From positions 1 through 44,736 of IMG/VR virus record IMGVR_UViG_3300037189_005575: 44,736 nucleotides of DNA. One strand, given 5' to 3'. Origin of the DNA: a virus. The position numbers and the translations under genes were made by a program. Positions 1,351 through 43,207 of this stretch are shown piece after piece. The first letter of the stretch is position 1. Each line of letters opens with the position of its first letter. Below the pieces are notes generated by a model. The model did not search any database, had not been told where the DNA came from, and saw only the letters and a list, made by a program, of their open reading frames with translations.

Positions 1351-3901
1351 TCCCACACCTATGGGTGATCTCAGTTCTTTTAATAAAGAACTGGATAAGA
1401 TTCTTCAGAAACTTGATCATGTCGCAACATCTCTTGACAACGTTGCTACTTCTGGCAAGGGCATCAACACTGGCGCTACTAGTTCTACTGGTATTGGTAG
1501 TTTAGGCCTTGGTAGTTCAGGCTCTAACTTTCTAAACACGTACTTTGGTAGTATTCCAAGTTTCTACACAAAAGTAGCTAAGTTTAGCCTTGGTGCAGGT
1601 ATTGCAGGAAACTTACTCAAAGGTGCAGGAAGCCTGATTGGTGGAGCAGGTGCTGCTCTTCCAAATTTGAGTGCCACTATGGGCATGGCAAGTGGCGAGT
1701 ATTACGCTGCTGCCATGTCTGGTGGCTATAAAGGTGGCGTAACTTGGGGCGCTGTTGGTAACCAAACTATGCGAGGACTCGCAGGCGGTATTACCTCTCC
1801 TGGTTCTATCGGTGCTGTTTCTGCATCTTTAGCAAATAGCGGAATTTTTGCAGGAAACACTCGAGGCGTATACGGTGGTGCTGGCCAGTACAATAACGCC
1901 CTAGCTTCTATCCGTGGTGCTGCCCGTTACCTAAACATTGACAATGGAGTAGCTGCTCAATCTGTAGCAAACATGTACTCGGGCTCCACAAGCATGAGTA
2001 TGCTGCAGAACTTTGGTATTTACACTACCAACCCAATGACTGGTAAAAGTGCATCTCCACTGCAGCAGTTTGCTATGTTGAACAACAGGCTAACTGGTGG
2101 TGGACAAATGTCTTACAACCAAGTAAAGACTGCCCTTGGTCCTGGTGGAATGCTTACTGCAGATATCAAGAGTTCTGGCCTCGATGCCACTGGCCAAACA
2201 ATGCTTAGAAAATATATGTTGGATGCAGCCAAAGGAAACTACTGGAGCTCATCTGATTATGGCTCTGAGCTTGCTAAAAACGCAGGTGGTAACCCAAGCC
2301 AACCTGGAATGGATATCTTTACTTCTCAGACAAAGGTGATGCAAACTGCTTCACAAGCTTATGTTGAAGGCGTGACATCTGCATCAAAAGCCATTGAGCA
2401 GATGAATACTGTTCTTAATAACTTCTTAAAGAGTCCTTTTGGAAGAAAGTTTGCTTCTCTAAATGCTGCTGGAGAAACTCTCGCTACAGATCCAACGGTT
2501 CAAGGTGCTGCAGGTGGTGTACTTGGAGCTGCACAATCAGCTTTAGGCATTGGTAGCTCTATTTTGGACTTCTTATCTGCAAGAAAAGCAGGTAAAAGCA
2601 GAGGTCTTTGGAAGGGCGGATTTAGGCAAACTCCTACTCCAGGAGGCAAATTACGTAAAGGCTATAGCTGGGGTGGAAAAAAGGGTAATAAAATATTTGA
2701 TTCTGCTGGCAAAAAACTTTCTAAGGCCGCTATGCAGGAAGCTGGAACTCTCGACCTTAAGGCTATAGGAAAAGGCATAGGTAAGGTTGCTCTTGCTGGT
2801 GGAGGTGCTTTAGATGCCGTATTCATGGGAGCAAGTTTATTCGGTGACGTAGCTAGTGGTCAAGGGTGGGGAACAAAGCAGTTTAGTGCTGATGCTGGTT
2901 CTGGAATTGGTGGATTTGTTGGTGGTGCCCTCGGAACTCTTCTTGACCCAGTTACTTTTGGTATGGGAACTATTCTTGGTGGAATGGCTGGCGCCTATCT
3001 TGGTGGTCAAATTGGCGCATCCATGCCTAGTGGTGGTTCTGGAAATGTTGCTTCTGGAGTAATGACTAGTACTGGTGGAAAGCTAAAACTTATTCACCCA
3101 GTTGGTAGAGCCAAGATTGGTACTCGTTATGGGCAAAAGGATGGGCTGCACCCCGCAGGTCACGGAGGTATCGACTTTGTTGTTCCTCTTGGCACTCCAG
3201 TACAAGCTGCCGCAGATGGAAAGGTTACTTTTGCTGGCGGTAACTCTCAGAACACTATGGGAACTAATAACCGAACTCTTGGTATGCAAGTTTGGATTGA
3301 CCACGGTAATGGTTACACTACGGTTTATGGCCACTTAAGTGCGTACAACGTGTACGTTGGTACTGAAGTCAAGGCTGGACAGCAAATTGGTTCTAGCGGT
3401 AACTCTGGTTACTCTAGCGGTCCTCACTTGCACTTTGAACTAAGGTATAAAGGGCAGCACGTAGACCCATCCAGTGCTTTAGGTGGAAACTACTCTGCTG
3501 TTACTGGTGGGGTAAAGGCTTCTTCGGGATCTAGCGCAACTACTACTGGTGATGGATCTGGTTCTGCGGGTTCTGCTGGAACTTTAGGATTAAGTTCTGG
3601 TGCTTGGAGTGGAACTATGCCTGCAGCTTACTCTGGGGCTTCAGTCGGAACCGCAGCTACCAAAGTAGCTGCTATGGGAAGCTCGGTTTTAGGTGTTGGT
3701 GGAAAGGCTAACTCTGGTGCTGCTGCAGTGGGTGCAGGCGCAGGTGGTGGAGCAGACACTGCCCCTATGCAGAGATCTGGTTCTGTGACGATTAACGTAA
3801 ACGTACAGTCTGCCTCTGAGTCAGAGGCTAAACGAATGGCAATGATTATTAAAGATTACCTTGAGCAAGACAAACTTGCAGCAAGTATGAGGAGAGCGTA
3901 A
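1343..3901 (+). CDS. Tape measure protein with M23 (LytM-type) peptidase domain
   Basis: At 852 residues this is the largest protein here. It follows the chaperone genes, as a tape measure should. The N-terminal part has short coiled-coil segments and long Gly/Ala/Ser-rich hydrophobic stretches. Around residues 585-715 sits an M23 metallopeptidase domain: H607-G-G-I-D611 gives the first zinc ligands and H695-L-H697-F-E the last. The domain probably cuts host peptidoglycan cross-links as DNA enters the cell. The C-terminal tail is Gly/Ser/Ala-rich and ends in a charged helix likely to contact the hub. The length suggests a tail of roughly 120 nm if the usual 1.5 A per residue rule holds. Confidence 0.85.
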   Translation: MVDPTPMGDLSSFNKELDKILQKLDHVATSLDNVATSGKGINTGATSSTGIGSLGLGSSGSNFLNTYFGSIPSFYTKVAKFSLGAGIAGNLLKGAGSLIGGAGAALPNLSATMGMASGEYYAAAMSGGYKGGVTWGAVGNQTMRGLAGGITSPGSIGAVSASLANSGIFAGNTRGVYGGAGQYNNALASIRGAARYLNIDNGVAAQSVANMYSGSTSMSMLQNFGIYTTNPMTGKSASPLQQFAMLNNRLTGGGQMSYNQVKTALGPGGMLTADIKSSGLDATGQTMLRKYMLDAAKGNYWSSSDYGSELAKNAGGNPSQPGMDIFTSQTKVMQTASQAYVEGVTSASKAIEQMNTVLNNFLKSPFGRKFASLNAAGETLATDPTVQGAAGGVLGAAQSALGIGSSILDFLSARKAGKSRGLWKGGFRQTPTPGGKLRKGYSWGGKKGNKIFDSAGKKLSKAAMQEAGTLDLKAIGKGIGKVALAGGGALDAVFMGASLFGDVASGQGWGTKQFSADAGSGIGGFVGGALGTLLDPVTFGMGTILGGMAGAYLGGQIGASMPSGGSGNVASGVMTSTGGKLKLIHPVGRAKIGTRYGQKDGLHPAGHGGIDFVVPLGTPVQAAADGKVTFAGGNSQNTMGTNNRTLGMQVWIDHGNGYTTVYGHLSAYNVYVGTEVKAGQQIGSSGNSGYSSGPHLHFELRYKGQHVDPSSALGGNYSAVTGGVKASSGSSATTTGDGSGSAGSAGTLGLSSGAWSGTMPAAYSGASVGTAATKVAAMGSSVLGVGGKANSGAAAVGAGAGGGADTAPMQRSGSVTINVNVQSASESEAKRMAMIIKDYLEQDKLAASMRRA

Positions 3902-5550
3902 TGAGTACCCCTATTCCTAAAGCACCACCTAAAGGAACTGCCGCTTATGCTTCTTGGCTAAGAAAATACGGAAATATCAACCCGACTCCTCAGCAAACAA
4001 AAAATGCAAAAATTACTAGGCAAAAGCAGTTAAAAGCAGCCATCGTAAAAGATGATAAAAATATCACTAAAACTAAAGTCGCAAACAACGCCGCTTTTAA
4101 AGGGTTACTTTGGATTGGTGTTGCGCGATTTTCACAAACAGGTACCACTGGAAAAATATGGTTAATTACTGCCAGTAAACCACAGACGCGTTTAGGTGAC
4201 TTAACGGGTGGAGACGGGCTGTTTATGTATGATATAGCGGGTGTTGATCAAAGCATTTTTTACAATGGAAGCTCTCATGCAGTTGTAGTTAACAGTGTTG
4301 CTAATTCTGCCGATTCTTATGGGTGGCTAGTCACGGTTACTATGCCGCATAGTGCAACAATATCTGCAAAAAATTGTTCTGGAAGAGCATATTTACTTCC
4401 TTTGGGTATTGGTATAGCGGACAGTTTAGAAAAAGCTCATCAGGCAGCTATTTCAGCAGTTAATAAAAAAGATAATGATAAAGAATCTTTAAAAAAGCTT
4501 AATAAGGATTTAGGTAAAGATACGCCTCCAGGTGGTGGTGCAAGTAGCACGGATACTGGTGGAGTAAAGACTCTCAGTGGAGATAAGGTTACTTTAAATT
4601 ACAACTTGCCTACTGTGAAGTGGAATTACTTTTCTACCTCTAAGGGCTATGACAACATTCTTCTTAGTGCTTCAGGCACTCCTGCTGCTCCTAATAAGAT
4701 TAACGATGCTCAAACTCTTTGGCTTAATTCTTCTTCTAACAAAGGTATGCTTCAAACGTACTCACGTTGGGATCAAAAGCTATCCTCTACTGATGCCTCT
4801 AGCTCAAAGTATAAAGACCCAAACTTACCTGATTGGTTCATCAGTTCTTCTTATCAGGCTAAACGTTATGGTTTTCAGTTTATGTACAACCCTGCTAGCG
4901 TAAATCAGGTTTGGGGAGGTGTTCCAGATGTAGACCCTGGTCAGATGATGTCTGGTAAGGATGTTACTCCGTTTATTACTCCTGCCCAAACTGCTTCTTA
5001 CATTAGTTTTGACCTAATTATTAATCGAATGCAAGACATGGCTGTACTATCTGGGTACAGATCTGACGGTACTTCAAACATCGATTATGTGGCAAATCAC
5101 TTAAATGACTACTATGGAATTGATGTAGCAGCAGATGCTGCGGCTACAGATGATACGTCTTACCGTGATGAGCTAGCGGCAATCCAAGAACTTGGAACAA
5201 TGTATGACATTGAGTATCTTCTGAGCACTCTTATTGGGTTTAGAGAGTACAGCGCACTTAGAAGGCGTTATACTGCGGACTTTGGTTTCTTAATGGGAAT
5301 TCCCGTAGAACTTCACTTAGGTAAGCAGCTTAGGTACATTGGAACTATTCTGAACCTATCAGTTACTCACACAATCTTTACTGAAGGAATGGTACCAGTG
5401 TTTACAAACATCTCCATTACCTTTAGCCGTCGTGTTGAGCCATTTAAGGGAACTGCACAGATTTCTCCTGGAGGTTCGTTACTTAGCTCTGCGCTTATTT
5501 CTGACCCAAGTAAAACTTCTGGAAGCAGTGCTAGAGCTTCAGCTCAGTAA
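3901..5550 (+). CDS. Baseplate/tube-end protein with CIS-tube-like segment
   Basis: Unassigned 549-residue tail protein. Residues about 320-360 (F-Q-F-M-Y-N-P-A-S-V-N) resemble the start of tube-cap/CIS-tube proteins, which link the tail tube to the hub and typically precede a LysM protein, as here. The final 60 residues are beta-rich and end V-F-T-N-I-S-I-T-F-S-R-R. The first 190 residues look different: Lys/Asn-rich, then a small beta domain, with codons such as GGG, GCG and TTA commoner than in the neighbours, and a Gly/Thr/Asp linker follows. That may be an added domain. The start overlaps the tape measure stop (TAATG). Confidence 0.5.
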   Translation: MSTPIPKAPPKGTAAYASWLRKYGNINPTPQQTKNAKITRQKQLKAAIVKDDKNITKTKVANNAAFKGLLWIGVARFSQTGTTGKIWLITASKPQTRLGDLTGGDGLFMYDIAGVDQSIFYNGSSHAVVVNSVANSADSYGWLVTVTMPHSATISAKNCSGRAYLLPLGIGIADSLEKAHQAAISAVNKKDNDKESLKKLNKDLGKDTPPGGGASSTDTGGVKTLSGDKVTLNYNLPTVKWNYFSTSKGYDNILLSASGTPAAPNKINDAQTLWLNSSSNKGMLQTYSRWDQKLSSTDASSSKYKDPNLPDWFISSSYQAKRYGFQFMYNPASVNQVWGGVPDVDPGQMMSGKDVTPFITPAQTASYISFDLIINRMQDMAVLSGYRSDGTSNIDYVANHLNDYYGIDVAADAAATDDTSYRDELAAIQELGTMYDIEYLLSTLIGFREYSALRRRYTADFGFLMGIPVELHLGKQLRYIGTILNLSVTHTIFTEGMVPVFTNISITFSRRVEPFKGTAQISPGGSLLSSALISDPSKTSGSSARASAQ

Positions 5551-23710: not shown

Positions 23711-23892
23711 TGGGATTTAACGAATACAACCAGGGCTTCAATGATGGGCTCTACCACGCAGCTGACTTTCTTAAGTCTGTAGCCAAAGACCTAAACAGCC
23801 TTGGTATGGAGAGCGGCACCGAAGATGCCGAACTCCTAGAAGAACTTGCAGATGTAATTCTGGAAGACGTAAGAGAGGAAACAATTGATTAA
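23710..23892 (+). CDS. Small acidic protein of unknown function
   Basis: The 60-residue protein is helical and strongly acidic (E-D-A-E-L-L-E-E-L-A-D-V-I-L-E-D-V-R-E-E). The start overlaps the previous stop (TAATG) and the end overlaps the recA start (TTGATTAA). An acidic protein just before recA could be an interaction partner or DNA mimic, but nothing in the sequence proves this. Confidence 0.55.
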   Translation: MGFNEYNQGFNDGLYHAADFLKSVAKDLNSLGMESGTEDAELLEELADVILEDVREETID

Positions 23893-24931
23893 CCCAGAAG
23901 CCAAAAAGCTTATGGCCCAGATCAACAAGAAGCTGGGCAAAGAAGCAGTGGTAATTGGTGGAGACATCCGCAGTGATTTAATGCAGAGGTTCACCACTGG
24001 TTCTACTACTTATGACTACATCCTCGGTGGCGGGTTCCCTGCTAACCAGTGGAATGAGCTAATTGGTGATCCAAGTCATGGTAAGACTGCACTGGCCCTA
24101 AAGACCATCGCAGCCAACCAGATTAAAGACCCAGAGTTTACAACTGTCTGGGTAGCTGCAGAGCAGTGGGTGCCAGAGTATGCCGAGATGTGTGGCGTAG
24201 ATACTAACCGTGTAATTGTAATTGAGACGAACATTATGGAGGATGCGTATGACGCTGTTCTTGCTTTTGCTGAGTCTAAGTCTGTTGATGCCATTGTCAT
24301 TGATTCCCTTCCTGCTCTGGTTCCTGGCGCAGAGGACGAAAAGACTATGGAAGAAATGACCGTTGGTCGTGGAGCACTGCTAACCAATAAGTTCTTCCGT
24401 AAGGCAGGCGCAGCTATGAAGCGTAGCCTTCTAGAGTCAGAGCGCCCTATCCTAGGTATCATTATCAACCAGTGGCGTCAGAAGATTGGCGTAATGCACG
24501 GAGACCCTCGCACCACTCCAGGTGGCGTTGGTAAGGATTATGCTTACTTCACCCGTACCGAGATTCGTCGTAAGGACTGGATTAAGGTTGGCTCAGGAGA
24601 TAATGAGCAGCGTGTAGGTCAGCAGATCATTATGAAGACTGTAAAGAACAAGACTGCTCCACCTTACCAGGTTGCATCCGTTGACTTCTACTTCAAGGCC
24701 AACAGCATCTACAACCCAGGTGACTTTGATACTGCCAAGGAGATTGTGGCACTAGCCATCATCCAGCAGGTAGTTGAGCGCAAGGGTGGCTGGATTTACC
24801 ACAAGGAACGTAAGTGGCAGGGAGCTGAAAGCTTCGCTAACTCTGTGAGAGAAGAAGTAGATTTATTTGAGGAACTTAGGTCGGAGATTCTAAGCACTCA
24901 ACATTTTTTCTCTCAAGAAGACGCAGAGTAA
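23885..24931 (+). CDS. recA: RecA-like recombinase, tail probably replaced by an inserted copy
   Basis: The 348-residue protein has the RecA core: Walker A G61-D-P-S-H-G-K-T68, I-V-I-D-S-L-P-A-L-V-P (Walker B), and I-I-I-N-Q-W-R (sensor-like). It coats ssDNA and pairs strands. The TTG start is chosen because AGAGG lies before it and it overlaps the previous stop; the next ATG is nine codons in. The last 35 codons (24824-24931) are repeated, with many synonymous changes, at the end of the following HNH gene. The current 3' end therefore looks like a replacement brought by that gene. The catalytic core is intact. Confidence 0.85.
   Translation: MINPEAKKLMAQINKKLGKEAVVIGGDIRSDLMQRFTTGSTTYDYILGGGFPANQWNELIGDPSHGKTALALKTIAANQIKDPEFTTVWVAAEQWVPEYAEMCGVDTNRVIVIETNIMEDAYDAVLAFAESKSVDAIVIDSLPALVPGAEDEKTMEEMTVGRGALLTNKFFRKAGAAMKRSLLESERPILGIIINQWRQKIGVMHGDPRTTPGGVGKDYAYFTRTEIRRKDWIKVGSGDNEQRVGQQIIMKTVKNKTAPPYQVASVDFYFKANSIYNPGDFDTAKEIVALAIIQQVVERKGGWIYHKERKWQGAESFANSVREEVDLFEELRSEILSTQHFFSQEDAE
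24824..24931 (+). repeat. recA 3' end, copy 1 (upstream of HNH gene)
   Basis: Thirty-five codons plus stop encode A-E-S-F-A-N-S-V-R-E-E-V and the rest of the RecA tail. Aligned with copy 2 at 25418-25528, 25 of the first 32 residues are identical, while many codons differ (for example TCT/TCA, GTG/GTA, AGA/CGT). The 5' borders are 594 bp apart. Confidence 0.8.
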
Positions 24932-24939
24932 TTAGTAAT

Positions 24940-25022
24940 AGCTATTTAAGCAATCTTTTACAAAAGTTATGGGTATAGTTTATCTATGACAAATAAAACT
25001 TGTAAATCTTGCTTAAATAGCT
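24940..25022. repeat. 14-bp inverted repeat enclosing the HNH gene start
   Basis: AGCTATTTAAGCAA (24940-24953) and TTGCTTAAATAGCT (25009-25022) are perfect reverse complements. The right arm is inside the HNH coding region, and the 55-bp interval holds the promoter-like box and the ATG. An RNA reading in from recA could fold this and hide the HNH start. Confidence 0.6.
24974..24985 (+). promoter_or_regulatory. Putative leaderless promoter of the HNH gene (TATAGT-N6-ATG)
   Basis: TATAGT (24974-24979) fits a TAnnnT -10 box, and the ATG lies six bases further, near the expected transcription start. No SD precedes the ATG. The gene would be made independently of the recA operon mRNA. Confidence 0.45.
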
Positions 25023-25528
25023 TTCCTGCTACTACAGACTTTTTTTATTCTTATTATTCTAAATCGGCAAATAAAGAATATCTTCGTACAAACTGTAAGA
25101 AGTGTCACTCTAGTCTAATGACTTCATCACTAAAAGAACTACGTAGACAAAGACCATTAGAAATAAGGGCTAAAGAGCAAAAAGCTAGACAAAAAATATC
25201 TGATTGGGTTGACTCGTTAAAATCAGGCCCATGCACAGACTGTGGTACTCACTACCCTCCAGTATGTATGGATTTTGACCATTTACCTGAGTTTAAAAAG
25301 ACAGCAGATGTGTCTACTGCTCGTTCTAGAAAATGGTCAAAGTCTAGGATTCTAGAAGAGGTAGCAAAGTGCGAGCTAGTATGCTCCAACTGTCATAGAA
25401 TTAGGGGCCAAAAAAGAGCTGAAGCATTTGCTAATTCAGTACGTGAAGAGGTAGAATTGTTTGAGGAACTCAGAAATGAGATTCTATCAGCAAGAATTTT
25501 CTTTAGTGAAGAAGGACAAGATGGGTAA
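24986..25528 (+). CDS. HNH homing-type endonuclease fused to a recA 3'-end copy
   Basis: The 180-residue protein has an N-terminal zinc site (C6-x2-C9 and C-K-K-C), a basic linker, then the HNH module C-T-D-C-G, M-D-F-D-H and C-S-N-C-H-R-I. It nicks or cuts DNA and would spread the insertion. From residue 145 (25418) the frame runs in-frame into a second copy of the RecA tail (A-E-A-F-A-N-S-V-R-E-E-V...). This looks like the original recA 3' end captured as the HNH C terminus. The stop overlaps the next ATG by 8 nt, as expected of the ancestral recA end. It resembles the HNH gene at 43245 in its CxxC/CxxC start. Confidence 0.8.
   Translation: MTNKTCKSCLNSFPATTDFFYSYYSKSANKEYLRTNCKKCHSSLMTSSLKELRRQRPLEIRAKEQKARQKISDWVDSLKSGPCTDCGTHYPPVCMDFDHLPEFKKTADVSTARSRKWSKSRILEEVAKCELVCSNCHRIRGQKRAEAFANSVREEVELFEELRNEILSARIFFSEEGQDG
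25418..25528 (+). repeat. recA 3' end, copy 2 (end of HNH gene)
   Basis: Thirty-six codons plus stop encode a tail homologous to the RecA C terminus. It contains the SD (GAAGGA) of the following gene and overlaps its start, so it is probably the original recA end, with copy 1 the newcomer. Confidence 0.8.
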
Positions 25529-25763
25529 GATGAATGATGCCAGCGTCAACTACGACGCAATGGAGGCATACGAAGAGTCCATTCGAGAAGATCTGAGAAA
25601 TGAAGGTGCGGAAGAACTTCGCAGTGAAATTATCAGGAATCTTGATAACCACAATACTCACGTAAACTCCTTTTCCTCGTCCCTATCGGACGACAGAACT
25701 GCAGAAATTTACCGAGCTGCTATTAACGAAGCAATTATGTTTGTAGTTAGAGCCGCTCGCTAA
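25521..25763 (+). CDS. Unknown small acidic protein
   Basis: No family recognised. The ATG at 25521 follows a GAAGGA SD that lies in the HNH/recA tail; upstream in-frame starts have no SD. The 80-residue protein is helical and charged (E-E-S-I-R-E-D-L-R-N-E-G-A-E-E-L-R). Its overlap with the end of the HNH gene (8 nt) probably reflects an ancestral overlap with recA. It overlaps the next nuclease gene by one base (TAATG). Confidence 0.6.
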   Translation: MGKMNDASVNYDAMEAYEESIREDLRNEGAEELRSEIIRNLDNHNTHVNSFSSSLSDDRTAEIYRAAINEAIMFVVRAAR

Positions 25764-26080
25764 TGAAGTCCGAAGGCCAAAAGCAGTCCCAGAAGCACGA
25801 AGCTCGTCTAGCAAAAGCTATCGACGGTAAAGTAAACGCTGCTTCTGGGGCCTTTTGGTCTAGGAAGGGAGACGTACGTAGTGATGATCTCCTCATTGAG
25901 CATAAATGGACAGGAAAGAAGTCCAAAACCATTCAGTCAGCAGAACTGAAAAAAATAACCAACGAAGCCATCATGGATGGTCGCACACCTGTATTTGGAA
26001 TTCATCTAGACGGTGAAGACTACGTAATTCTCCTTGAACATGACTTTATGGAATTACGGAACAGTGCAAGACAAATTTGA
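25763..26080 (+). CDS. Small PD-(D/E)XK nuclease, Holliday-junction-resolvase-like
   Basis: The 105-residue protein has the nuclease core G36-D-V, D42-L-L-I-E46-x-K48, typical of PD-(D/E)XK enzymes, followed by a helix and a strand (P-V-F-G-I-H-L-D-G-E-D-Y-V-I-L). Size and neighbours (RecA, RecB-like, RuvC-like) suit a Hjc-type resolvase or nicking enzyme. The exact substrate is not readable from the sequence. Its end overlaps the WhiB-like gene. Confidence 0.6.
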   Translation: MKSEGQKQSQKHEARLAKAIDGKVNAASGAFWSRKGDVRSDDLLIEHKWTGKKSKTIQSAELKKITNEAIMDGRTPVFGIHLDGEDYVILLEHDFMELRNSARQI

Positions 26081-39014: not shown

Positions 39015-39500
39015 ATGCAAATATTAGTAGATGTATCTGGTGTATTAAAAAGTACATCAGACGAGCCAATTCCAACAGGCGTGTTAATGATCGGCACGTT
39101 GAGTGTTTACAATAACCTGACGTTTCTAACCTCAGAAACTGAGGCAGAGTTAACATACTGGTTAAACGGCCACAAGATTGTGGACTATGACAAGATTATC
39201 GACTCAAAGGTTGGATTAGCTGGAGAAGATTTAACAGAGCGTCAAATCAAGTTAGCCAGATCAAAAGGTCCAGTTGATTTAGTTATCACCAACAACCCTA
39301 AAGTATGGGTGTTTACATTTGAGATGGGTATTCCATCAGTTATGTTTGGTGTCCCTAGCTACACTCGACCAGAGTTTCGTCCCGATGCCCCTAAGAAGAT
39401 TCGTTCTTGGGATGATATTGAGGCTACACTGCATAAGCAGAATCAAATGCGAACTGAAGATGCAAGGCTCTCTAGAACAGAGGCTTTGAACTTTGAGTAA
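39015..39500 (+). CDS. Degenerate HAD-like protein
   Basis: The 161-residue protein starts I-L-V-D6-V-S-G-V-L, close to the HAD motif I (D-x-D-G), but the second Asp is Ser8. A later V-I-T-N-N-P segment recalls motif II. The missing Asp suggests weak or altered phosphatase activity, or a binding role. It is followed by a DpdA-like gene starting in an 8-nt overlap (TTGAGTAA). Confidence 0.55.
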   Translation: MQILVDVSGVLKSTSDEPIPTGVLMIGTLSVYNNLTFLTSETEAELTYWLNGHKIVDYDKIIDSKVGLAGEDLTERQIKLARSKGPVDLVITNNPKVWVFTFEMGIPSVMFGVPSYTRPEFRPDAPKKIRSWDDIEATLHKQNQMRTEDARLSRTEALNFE

Positions 39501-40986
39501 CATTGTCTTTAGTGGTGTAGAGATCCCCAGCAATCGTACGTTGCTTGAAAAAGCTGGGGCTACCAATGTCATGCTTAATTTTTGGGGCTTAAAGAAACGT
39601 GGCTTACCAAAGACTAAACAATACCTTATTGCTGAGCATTTCTTACCAGAGATGAAAGTATGGGTAGACTCTGGAGCAATGCAGGCAGATAAAGCTAACC
39701 TTTCTAAAGAAGAGTTAGAAGACTTTGCTGCTGACTATGAAGACTTTATCTCTTACAACTACGACCGTATTGAAGGTTGGGTTGAGTTTGACAGTCAAGT
39801 ACTTGGCTTACAGTGGGTCGTGAACGAGCGTAAACCGTTTTTAAACGACCCTAAGTTTATTGTTGTATGGAATGAATCACATGGCATCAATAAGCTCCAG
39901 GATTGGGCTAGAGTCCATAAAAACATCGCAATCTCTGGAGAGTCTATTAACTCTGTTCCATCGCTTGCAGGAGTCACACGTAACCTTGTTGGCCAGTATG
40001 GCACTGTATTCCATGGCCTTGCTGTAGCTAAACCTGACAATCTACGACAGATTCCATTTACAACTGCTTCTACGTTGAGTTGGATATCTCCAATGCGAAG
40101 AGGTGAGACTATCATTTGGGATGGCTCTCAACTTGTTCGTTACCCTAAAAAGATGAAAGCACAAGCCAGGCCAAGATACAAAAGTATTCTTGAAAAAGCT
40201 GGCCTAGACTTTCAATTGTTTGTGTCGGATGACACGCTGGAAGCAACCAAAGTTGCTGTGTGGTCATACCTTCAGTTAGAGAGAAAAATGAACAAAGATA
40301 AACCTGATCTTAAGCTTATCAAAGGTGACAAGTTAGCTGATAACAGTGATGACACCCTATACACAGGTTTGATGGATATGGGGTGGGGGTCTTCTGATAA
40401 CAGCGGTTCTGAAATGCGGAAAGTTGAACGCACAGAAACTGTGCAAAGAGACCCTTCTGAGCTTACTACAATGCCTGGTTTTGGGTATCAACTTAAGACT
40501 GTTGTAGAGAACCAAGATGGCCGCGATGTCCTCAAGCAAGTACCTGTTGTGGAGTCAAATGCTCTCAGTGTTCGTGCTTGTAACACCTGTTACGTGGCTG
40601 CTAATTGCCCTGCTTTTAAAGAGAATAACAGCTGTGCTTTTAGTCTTCCTGTTGAGGTAAAAACACCTGAACAGCTCAAAGCTTTGAACATGACTTTAGT
40701 TGAGATGCAGGCCCAGAGGGTAATGTTTATGCGGTTCCAGGAAGAATTGAACGGTGGTTACGCTGACCCTAACCTCTCTCAAGAGATTGACCGCTACCAG
40801 AAGATGTTGAAGAACATTAAGGAGTTGGATGAGCAAAAAGAGTTCATCCAAATCACTGCTCAACGTAACGCTGGCCAGGGTGTTCTTTCTGCTATCTTTG
40901 GTGATAGAGTTGAGGCTGCAAAAGAGAATCAAAGGGTAATCAGTGAGGATCAAACCACAATGATTATTCGAAATAACCTCGAGTAA
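39493..40986 (+). CDS. TGT/DpdA-like barrel protein with C-terminal Cys cluster
   Basis: The 497-residue protein has V-W-V-D59-S-G-A-M near residue 60, an E-G-W-V-E-F-D segment, and F-H174-G-L-A-V followed by T-T-A-S-T-L-S-W, the layout of queuine tRNA-ribosyltransferase/DpdA-like proteins. DpdA inserts 7-deazaguanine into DNA. The C-terminal third carries C363-x2-C366-x5-C372-x8-C381, a possible zinc or Fe-S site, then a helical tail (D-P-N-L-S-Q-E-I-D-R-Y-Q-K-M). No preQ0-synthesis gene (folE, queC, queD, queE) is seen in this window. The start is TTG overlapping the previous stop. Family by pattern, activity unproven. Confidence 0.55.
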   Translation: MSNIVFSGVEIPSNRTLLEKAGATNVMLNFWGLKKRGLPKTKQYLIAEHFLPEMKVWVDSGAMQADKANLSKEELEDFAADYEDFISYNYDRIEGWVEFDSQVLGLQWVVNERKPFLNDPKFIVVWNESHGINKLQDWARVHKNIAISGESINSVPSLAGVTRNLVGQYGTVFHGLAVAKPDNLRQIPFTTASTLSWISPMRRGETIIWDGSQLVRYPKKMKAQARPRYKSILEKAGLDFQLFVSDDTLEATKVAVWSYLQLERKMNKDKPDLKLIKGDKLADNSDDTLYTGLMDMGWGSSDNSGSEMRKVERTETVQRDPSELTTMPGFGYQLKTVVENQDGRDVLKQVPVVESNALSVRACNTCYVAANCPAFKENNSCAFSLPVEVKTPEQLKALNMTLVEMQAQRVMFMRFQEELNGGYADPNLSQEIDRYQKMLKNIKELDEQKEFIQITAQRNAGQGVLSAIFGDRVEAAKENQRVISEDQTTMIIRNNLE

Positions 40987-41161: not shown

Positions 41162-43207
41162 ATGGTTAATTTCTCTTTTAAACTTGCAGATGATTTCGTT
41201 GCATCGTATCGCTCAAAGAAGGCTCCATTCGGTTACGCTGACGTGGCTGGCAACTCGGTAGGAGAGATTACCTTCCTACGTACCTACAGTCGTAAGAAGC
41301 CTGATGGCACCAAGGAGACTTGGGCTGATGTATGTGAGCGCGTTATCAACGGTATGTACTCGCTTCAGAAGGACCACGCTAAGCAGAACCGTCTTCCATG
41401 GAGCGATGCTAAGGCCGCTGCTTCCGCTAAGGAAGCCTTTGACCGTCTCTTCAACCTGAAGTGGACTCCACCAGGCCGCGGTCTTTGGGTAATGGGAACT
41501 GAGATTGTAAACACTCAGAAGAACAGTGCCGCTCTACAGAACTGTGCTTTTGTTTCTACAAAGGAGATGAGCAAGGACAACCCTGCTAAGCCATTCGGAT
41601 TCCTTATGGAAGCTTCGATGCTTGGTGTTGGTGTTGGCTTTGACGACAAGGGCGCTGACAAGGGTTTCGACATCTATGACCCAAGTGAGCCTAGTGAGTA
41701 CATCATCCCTGACACTCGTGAGGGTTGGGCCGAGAGTACTGTTGCTCTTATCAACTCTTTCCTGAAGCCTAACCAGAAGCGTTGGGACTTTGACTACAGT
41801 CAGATTCGCCCATATGGTGCACCTATCGCTACCTTTGGTGGAACTGCTGCTGGTCACGAACCTCTCTTCAAGTTGCACAGTCAGATTCGCAATCTGTTTG
41901 AGGGTCGCAAGGGCGAGAAGCTTACTCGTAAGGACATCGCTGACATCGGCAACATGATTGGTGTCTGTGTAGTTTCGGGTAACGTTCGTCGTAGTGCAGA
42001 GCTTCTTATCGGTCGCATTGACGATGAGGACTTCCTCAACCTCAAGAATGCTGAGCGTTTCCCTGAGCGTAACTCTTACGACCCAGAGGCTCCAGGATGG
42101 GCTTGGATGTCTAACAACTCTGTTGAGGTCTCAGTAGGTACTGACTTCTCTAACATTGTTGATGGCATTGTGCGTAATGGTGAGCCTGGCGTTATTTGGA
42201 TGGACATGTCTCGTCAGTATGGCCGCTTGGCTGATGGCATCAACAACAAGGACTGGCGTGTAGTTGGCTACAACCCTTGTGCAGAGCAGAGCCTTGAGTC
42301 TTACGAAATGTGTACTCTTGTGGAGACTTACTTGAACCGTCACGATAGCATTGACGACTTCAAGCGCACTCTCAAGTTTGCGTATCTTTACGCTAAGACT
42401 GTTACGCTTCTTCCTACTCACTGGGAAGAGACTAACGCTATTATGCAGAGGAACCGTCGTATTGGTACTTCGATCTCTGGTGTAGCAAACTTTGCTGACA
42501 ACAAGGGATTCCCACAGCTTCGTCAGTGGATGGATGAAGGCTACGCTGTTGTCAAGGGCTACGACCAGACCTATAGTGAATGGCTTGGTATTCGTGAATC
42601 AGTAAAGATGACTACTGTAAAGCCTTCGGGCACTGTATCTATTCTTGCTGGTGAGTCGCCTGGTGTTCACTGGACCGCTGGTGGTAAGTACTTCCTGCGT
42701 GCTATTCGCTTTGCGAACAATGAGCCTATGCTCGAACTGTTCCGCATGGCTAACTACCGCATTGAGCCTGCTAGTGAGTCTCCTGACACTACCTCTGTAG
42801 TGTTCTTCCCTATCAAAAGCGAAGCAAAGCGTTCGGAGAAGGAAGTAAGCATTTACGAGAAGATGACTCTGGCTGCTACGGCACAGCGTTACTGGAGCGA
42901 CAACTCTGTGTCGGTCACTGTAACCTTTGACGCTGAGAAGGAAAAGGATTCTTTAGGCACTGTACTGCACATGTATGATGGCCAGCTGAAGACTGTATCG
43001 TTCCTGCCTATGGGTAACAAAGTCTTCCCACAGATGCCGTACACGCAGATTACTGAAGAAGAGTATGAGCAGTATGCTCTGCAGTTGTTCCCGATTGATT
43101 TCGAGGGCGTATACGCAGGCATGTCGCTCGATGCTGTTGGTGAGGCCTATTGCACTACGTCGAGCTGTGAAGTACGGTTAATCATGGATAACAGTAATAA
43201 CGGTTAG
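41162..43207 (+). CDS. nrdJ: Class II (B12-dependent) ribonucleoside-triphosphate reductase
   Basis: The 681-residue protein matches the monomeric adenosylcobalamin-dependent reductase type (Lactobacillus leichmannii-like): A-L-Q-N-C-A-F-V near residue 127, G-V-G-V-G-F-D, V-S-G-N-V-R-R-S-A-E, N-P-C-A-E-Q active-site loop, S-P-G-V-H-W-T-A-G-G-K-Y, and a C-terminal C-T-T-S-S-C-E thiol pair for reduction. It makes dNTPs from NTPs without a second subunit and needs host B12. It lies behind two folded leader elements. It supplies the polymerase together with the dNMP kinase at 27990. Confidence 0.9.
   Translation: MVNFSFKLADDFVASYRSKKAPFGYADVAGNSVGEITFLRTYSRKKPDGTKETWADVCERVINGMYSLQKDHAKQNRLPWSDAKAAASAKEAFDRLFNLKWTPPGRGLWVMGTEIVNTQKNSAALQNCAFVSTKEMSKDNPAKPFGFLMEASMLGVGVGFDDKGADKGFDIYDPSEPSEYIIPDTREGWAESTVALINSFLKPNQKRWDFDYSQIRPYGAPIATFGGTAAGHEPLFKLHSQIRNLFEGRKGEKLTRKDIADIGNMIGVCVVSGNVRRSAELLIGRIDDEDFLNLKNAERFPERNSYDPEAPGWAWMSNNSVEVSVGTDFSNIVDGIVRNGEPGVIWMDMSRQYGRLADGINNKDWRVVGYNPCAEQSLESYEMCTLVETYLNRHDSIDDFKRTLKFAYLYAKTVTLLPTHWEETNAIMQRNRRIGTSISGVANFADNKGFPQLRQWMDEGYAVVKGYDQTYSEWLGIRESVKMTTVKPSGTVSILAGESPGVHWTAGGKYFLRAIRFANNEPMLELFRMANYRIEPASESPDTTSVVFFPIKSEAKRSEKEVSIYEKMTLAATAQRYWSDNSVSVTVTFDAEKEKDSLGTVLHMYDGQLKTVSFLPMGNKVFPQMPYTQITEEEYEQYALQLFPIDFEGVYAGMSLDAVGEAYCTTSSCEVRLIMDNSNNG

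Follow-up and report, generated by a model that had tools for sequence, protein, structure and literature searches.

A probable HNH homing-endonuclease cassette that supplies a substitute end for phage recA

Mobile endonuclease genes and the present locus

Mobile endonuclease open reading frames (ORFs) accompanied by a foreign C terminus are described from fungal mitochondria, in Allomyces atp6, in Glomus atp6, atp9, cox2 and nad3, and in Rhizopus atp9; in Glomus, DNA identity to relatives amounts to 64-81% for the inserted ends and 91-98% for the native ends (PMC3630166). The phage homing-endonuclease literature deals, in the available parts of the sources, with split genes and allele exchange (PMC2988022, PMC10448857, PMC12724721). 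According to the accessible portion of one of these papers, the free-standing endonucleases of T4 carry out intronless homing with co-conversion, and in T4 I-TevI, segB and Aeh1 mobE hairpins and internal late promoters control the start of the nuclease (PMC2988022). A replacement gene tail carried along by the nuclease gene is described nowhere in the available parts of these three open papers, and a phage precedent may exist elsewhere (PMC2988022, PMC10448857, PMC12724721).

The locus considered here lies in one DNA stretch of 44,736 nt (the window), a contig from a tailed phage that carries baseplate, helicase and ribonucleotide reductase (RNR) genes, in which a free-standing HNH homing endonuclease has very probably invaded the 3' end of the phage recA as a cassette with its own substitute gene end. 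Common to the window and the fungal ORFs is a foreign, synonymously diverged end that completes the host gene in frame, followed by an endonuclease ORF and then by the displaced native end (PMC3630166). The Glomus elements encode LAGLIDADG or GIY-YIG nucleases in mitochondria, whereas the nuclease in the window is of the HNH type, belongs to a tailed phage and is associated with recombination genes, and the displaced end is fused to it (PMC3630166). The window element works like the fungal mobile ORFs but is not one of them, since its nuclease is of the HNH type and its host is a phage.

With the T4 Seg and Mob endonucleases, as far as the available text describes them, the window shares an intron-less nuclease gene beside essential phage genes, whereas T4-type endonucleases that enter a coding region split the gene (Aeh1 nrdA, T4 gene 60), unlike the one in the window (PMC2988022). 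In HEG islands, according to the accessible part of the source, the stretches over which phages have exchanged alleles are bordered by nuclease genes, as here (PMC10448857). The HNH endonuclease gp198 of Streptomyces phage Cursive, a member of the same HNH family as the window's protein, was the one annotated phage hit at the DNA level (74% across 176 nt); its gene has a polynucleotide kinase gene on one side and a hypothetical gene on the other, and no duplicated tail was detected there.

The recA locus and its two tails

The following features, given in window coordinates, make up the locus.

23885..24931, + strand: recA/UvsX-like recombinase gene, host of the insertion, 348 codons (Pfam RecA, E 1.5e-48; PHROG UvsX-like)
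24824..24931, + strand: copy 1, recoded surrogate recA tail with stop codon, taken as the left end of the element (comparison with relatives)
24940..25022, + strand: long stem-loop around the HNH start codon (19-nt arms; -30.5 kcal/mol, z -5.4 against shuffles)
24974..24979, + strand: candidate -10 box TATAGT, tentative, 6 nt 5' of the HNH ATG (sequence)
24986..25417, + strand: HNH homing-endonuclease core, 144 aa (PHROG HNH endonuclease, E 3e-27)
25418..25528, + strand: copy 2, displaced native recA tail, C terminus and stop of the HNH frame (nearer in DNA to 63/79 native tails)
25512..25516, + strand: Shine-Dalgarno sequence AAGGA of the next gene, within copy 2 (sequence; alike in L002 and L004)
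25530..25763, + strand: small next gene, the usual direct 3' neighbour of recA (many relatives have the order recA, small gene, hjr)
25763..26080, + strand: Holliday-junction-resolvase-like gene (hjr), intact in the window and the target of sister HNH elements in relatives (PHROG Holliday junction resolvase, E 3e-21)

Along the window, the recA body is followed by the copy 1 tail with its stop codon, the hairpin, the HNH gene and the copy 2 tail, and both the recA ORF (23885-24931) and the HNH ORF (24986-25528) are open. The gene after hjr encodes a WhiB factor, which we take to indicate actinobacterial hosts. Elsewhere, the window carries a queuine tRNA-ribosyltransferase-like gene (39493-40986) and a ribonucleotide reductase gene (41162-43207).

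The first-pass annotation had claimed that the HNH frame closes with a second version (25418-25528) of the recA 3' end (24824-24931), and this was borne out over about 35-36 codons. AESFANSVREEVDLFEELRSEILSTQHFFSQE and AEAFANSVREEVELFEELRNEILSARIFFSEE are identical at 25 of 32 residues, the second-best 32-mer match in six frames across the whole window reaches 11/32, and the local alignment of the two tails lies 23 s.d. over shuffles. At the DNA level, a direct repeat (24822-24892 and 25416-25486) shows 76% identity across 71 nt at a spacing of 594; the homology starts at 24822 and 25416, slightly 5' of the 24824 and 25418 noted earlier, and the element spans the 594 nt from one repeat start to the other. 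The tail duplication is far beyond chance. The many synonymous differences reported between the copies are also present: 21 of the first 24 codons encode the same residue, and 10 of these 21 do so with a different codon.

Integrase insertions such as e14 and P21 in icd supply an alternative gene end and displace the old one. An insertion of this type, restoring the 3' end of recA, would produce a similar outcome as far as general knowledge goes, but the 594-nt element contains no integrase, the HNH ORF being its sole coding-strand ORF, and its flanks hold no long identical att core, the repeats being just 76% identical. Such an origin is barely credible.

To place the two tails, 80 recA loci from related virus contigs, all metagenome-derived, served as relatives. 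Over the first 24 codons, the DNA of 63 of 79 relatives is nearer to copy 2 and that of 4 of 79 to copy 1, which bears out the earlier view that the second copy, holding the Shine-Dalgarno sequence of the next gene, is the original recA end. Mean DNA identity to the relatives' tails is 0.553 for copy 1 and 0.618 for copy 2, and mean amino-acid identity is about equal (0.586 and 0.575, respectively). HNH-less relatives matching copy 1 and not copy 2 were looked for, and the opposite was found, copy 2 being the one matched; as predicted, the tail joins the next gene directly in recA loci without the HNH gene. Identity to L001, L002 and L004 runs at ~0.73-0.80 and then falls to 0.44-0.56 in the last stretch of recA, with the drop beginning at ~24824-24830. 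Against the near relative L001, copy 1 shows 88% amino-acid and only 68% nucleotide identity, a nucleotide value lower than expected from native pairs whose proteins are 85-90% identical (5-95% range, 0.712-0.889). The candidate starts of the next gene (ATG 25521 or 25530) lie with AAGGA at the end of copy 2, and the layout in L002 and L004 is alike. Because of this nearness in DNA to the relatives, and because the Shine-Dalgarno sequence and starts of the next gene lie in copy 2, copy 2 is, on these comparisons, the original recA end and copy 1 a recoded surrogate. The first-pass proposal that the HNH element was inserted at the recA tail, with a recoded tail in front and the old tail captured as its own C terminus, holds in all its parts.

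A search for a donor of copy 1 found none, and the copy 1 protein is closest to the local phage clade, which leaves some small likelihood for a duplication in place with subsequent recoding. Since both copies are near the same relative clade in protein, a local tandem duplication of the recA tail could be considered, with the HNH gene inserted between the copies and drift following. However, the functional recA copy has the departed DNA and the outside copy the native DNA, whereas drift predicts the reverse, and we regard this course of events as unlikely.

The HNH family is characterized by invariant CxxC pairs and an FDH motif, and its relatives in bacterial genomes span many phyla; the window's protein gave no match to any Pfam HNH family and a weak match to the HNH nickase 4h9d. 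In the AF2 model (mean pLDDT 86), residues 134-176 form one C-terminal helix, and the model shows the captured RecA tail as a predicted part of this single helix.

L001, L109 and L190 also have such boxes before the HNH gene (TATACT, TATTAT and TAAAAT), again with N6 spacing, and the TATAGT box of the window suggests a possible leaderless promoter of the HNH gene, which stays tentative because a sigma-70 two-hexamer scan did not call the box. The -10-like box sits inside the strong stem-loop around the HNH start codon (24940-25022). This combination of stem-loop and -10-like box at the HNH start is like that of the hairpin-controlled T4 homing endonucleases, as depicted in the available part of the source (PMC2988022).

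The strong stem-loop, together with the frequency of HNH nucleases in phage introns, might also suggest that the HNH ORF belongs to a self-splicing intron, a mobile group I intron or one of another kind, whose removal would join the recA body to copy 2. The first part of such an intron would, however, be an entire recA tail with its stop codon, making splicing needless, and no Rfam intron family was matched in 24600-25700 at E<=10 or in the whole window at gathering scores. With neither the element nor the window yielding an Rfam intron, an intron is highly improbable, and the suggested invasion without self-splicing stands.

Sister elements at hjr and their mobility

In those relatives whose contigs extend far enough, hjr comes after recA, either immediately or with one short gene between them, and an HNH gene 3' of recA is absent from all 80 related recA loci. 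HNH copies are present in 6 of the 80 recA-bearing records, and only that of L001 lies near recA/hjr. When the recA-HNH junction was sought in other contigs, only two chance hits came up, records very near the window being possibly outside the search.

The test for tail duplication covered 179 + 74 HNH loci, with L154 left out as not interpretable, and the real duplications besides the window are L109 and, weakly, L001. Other high scores (L184, L205 and L319) came from tandem HNH genes or frame artefacts. In L205, L319 and L104, which are other phages, two HNH genes stand near each other at one site.

The closest virus-contig relatives of the HNH protein come from phages of the same group, where their genes are located at the 3' terminus of the neighbouring hjr. 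This hjr-linked HNH gene occurs in at least eight phages (L001, L190, L109, L110 to L113 and L274), and the arrangement in L115, a more distant phage, is similar. In L109, the hjr tail NDFLTMREFIIECLENHT stands 5' of the HNH gene, and NDFLTIREHLLHCIEEHTGEE with the native downstream sequence stands 3' of it. GC content in L109 falls from 53% in the gene body to 30% in copy 1 and stands at 48% in copy 2. Of 26 close HNH-less relatives, 25 resemble copy 2 more than copy 1 in DNA, the remaining one being a tie; the jump in base composition at copy 1 is a further point against tandem duplication. A remnant of the native hjr tail also persists 3' of the HNH gene in L001, where it matches L002 and L004. 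An in-frame gene end before the nuclease and a displaced native end after it are found in the window and also in L109 and L001.

The displaced hjr tail of L001 (~5122-5180) reads YRLLL*GDFLELRDKL, in which an in-frame stop replaces a Glu codon, and the WhiB gene is still next. In L271-L274, the HNH gene starts at 2965 and hjr ends at 3005, so that the two overlap by 41 nt, with the HNH start lying within the surrogate hjr tail in a different frame; the tail and the nuclease gene are therefore inseparable in these phages.

A chimeric metagenome assembly, in which two recA alleles were joined around an HNH gene, would be compatible with the window being a single virus record of 44.7 kb and with the recA-HNH junction occurring in no second contig. 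Against it, the same kind of anatomy is seen at hjr in independent contigs, and the junction in the window is in frame, keeps the start of the next gene and is part of a recA-hjr block that is otherwise collinear, which makes a chimera quite improbable.

The mobility of the hjr cassettes can be followed in pairs of phages. L272, which carries the HNH gene, and L426, which lacks it, show zero mismatches across 2.7 kb (L272 65-2796); at L272 2797-3464, 668 nt of surrogate hjr 3' part and HNH gene stand in place of ~190 nt of native hjr 3' part, and beyond 3464 the two agree again at ~98%. The right border of the tract lies inside the last codons of the native hjr, and the HNH gene ends in the native GE-stop, which repeats in miniature the tail capture of the window. 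Taken alone, this pair would fit either gain of the cassette in L272 or its loss in L426. L273 and L274 differ by ~1 mismatch in ~700 nt of cassette, and both of their flanks are ~15-25% different. Because of the swap borders in L272/L426, together with the shared cassette between diverged flanks in L273/L274, these alignments show the mobile unit at hjr to be the 3' part of the gene plus the HNH gene, swapped between diverged phages with sharp borders.

Among ten phages, identity over hjr codons 40-end is 91% within the HNH-bearing group, 83% within the HNH-less group and 62% between the groups, and the left 600 nt with hjr codons 1-39 of the same phages show no such split. That the altered gene end travels between phages with the HNH gene in the hjr sisters again argues against tandem duplication, and the recA copy in the window would be mobile by analogy with these sisters.

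A second patch distinguishes L272 from L426 at ~4265-4465, with 29 mismatches in 200 nt amid otherwise nearly identical surroundings, and is perhaps another exchange tract.

Proposed mechanism and meaning

For the invasion of recA by a nuclease cassette, the following course can be proposed. During co-infection, the HNH protein would cut or nick the uninserted recA tail, and repair by homologous recombination would copy the cassette from the donor. As the sequence stands, copy 1 completes recA, and the old tail, copy 2, now forms the C terminus of the HNH protein; the recoded tail would keep the host gene whole. Recoding may also leave the new copy uncuttable and may lower deletion between the two tails.

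A phage class of "gene-tail homing" cassettes can be envisaged more tentatively, in which an HNH gene, linked to the recoded 3' end of some conserved gene for replication or recombination, has its own promoter and hairpin. Such cassettes might move from one gene to its neighbour (hjr to recA) by acquiring a new surrogate tail, with the captured native tail joining the nuclease. We hold this class to be possible rather than probable.

An intron-less selfish nuclease can, on this evidence, invade the coding sequence of a conserved phage gene harmlessly by carrying the gene end along, which would extend a fungal-mitochondrial strategy to phages and to HNH nucleases. L272/L426 and L273/L274 provide natural before/after pairs with base-level borders, and allele patchworks at the 3' ends of phage replication genes can reflect the footprints of homing.
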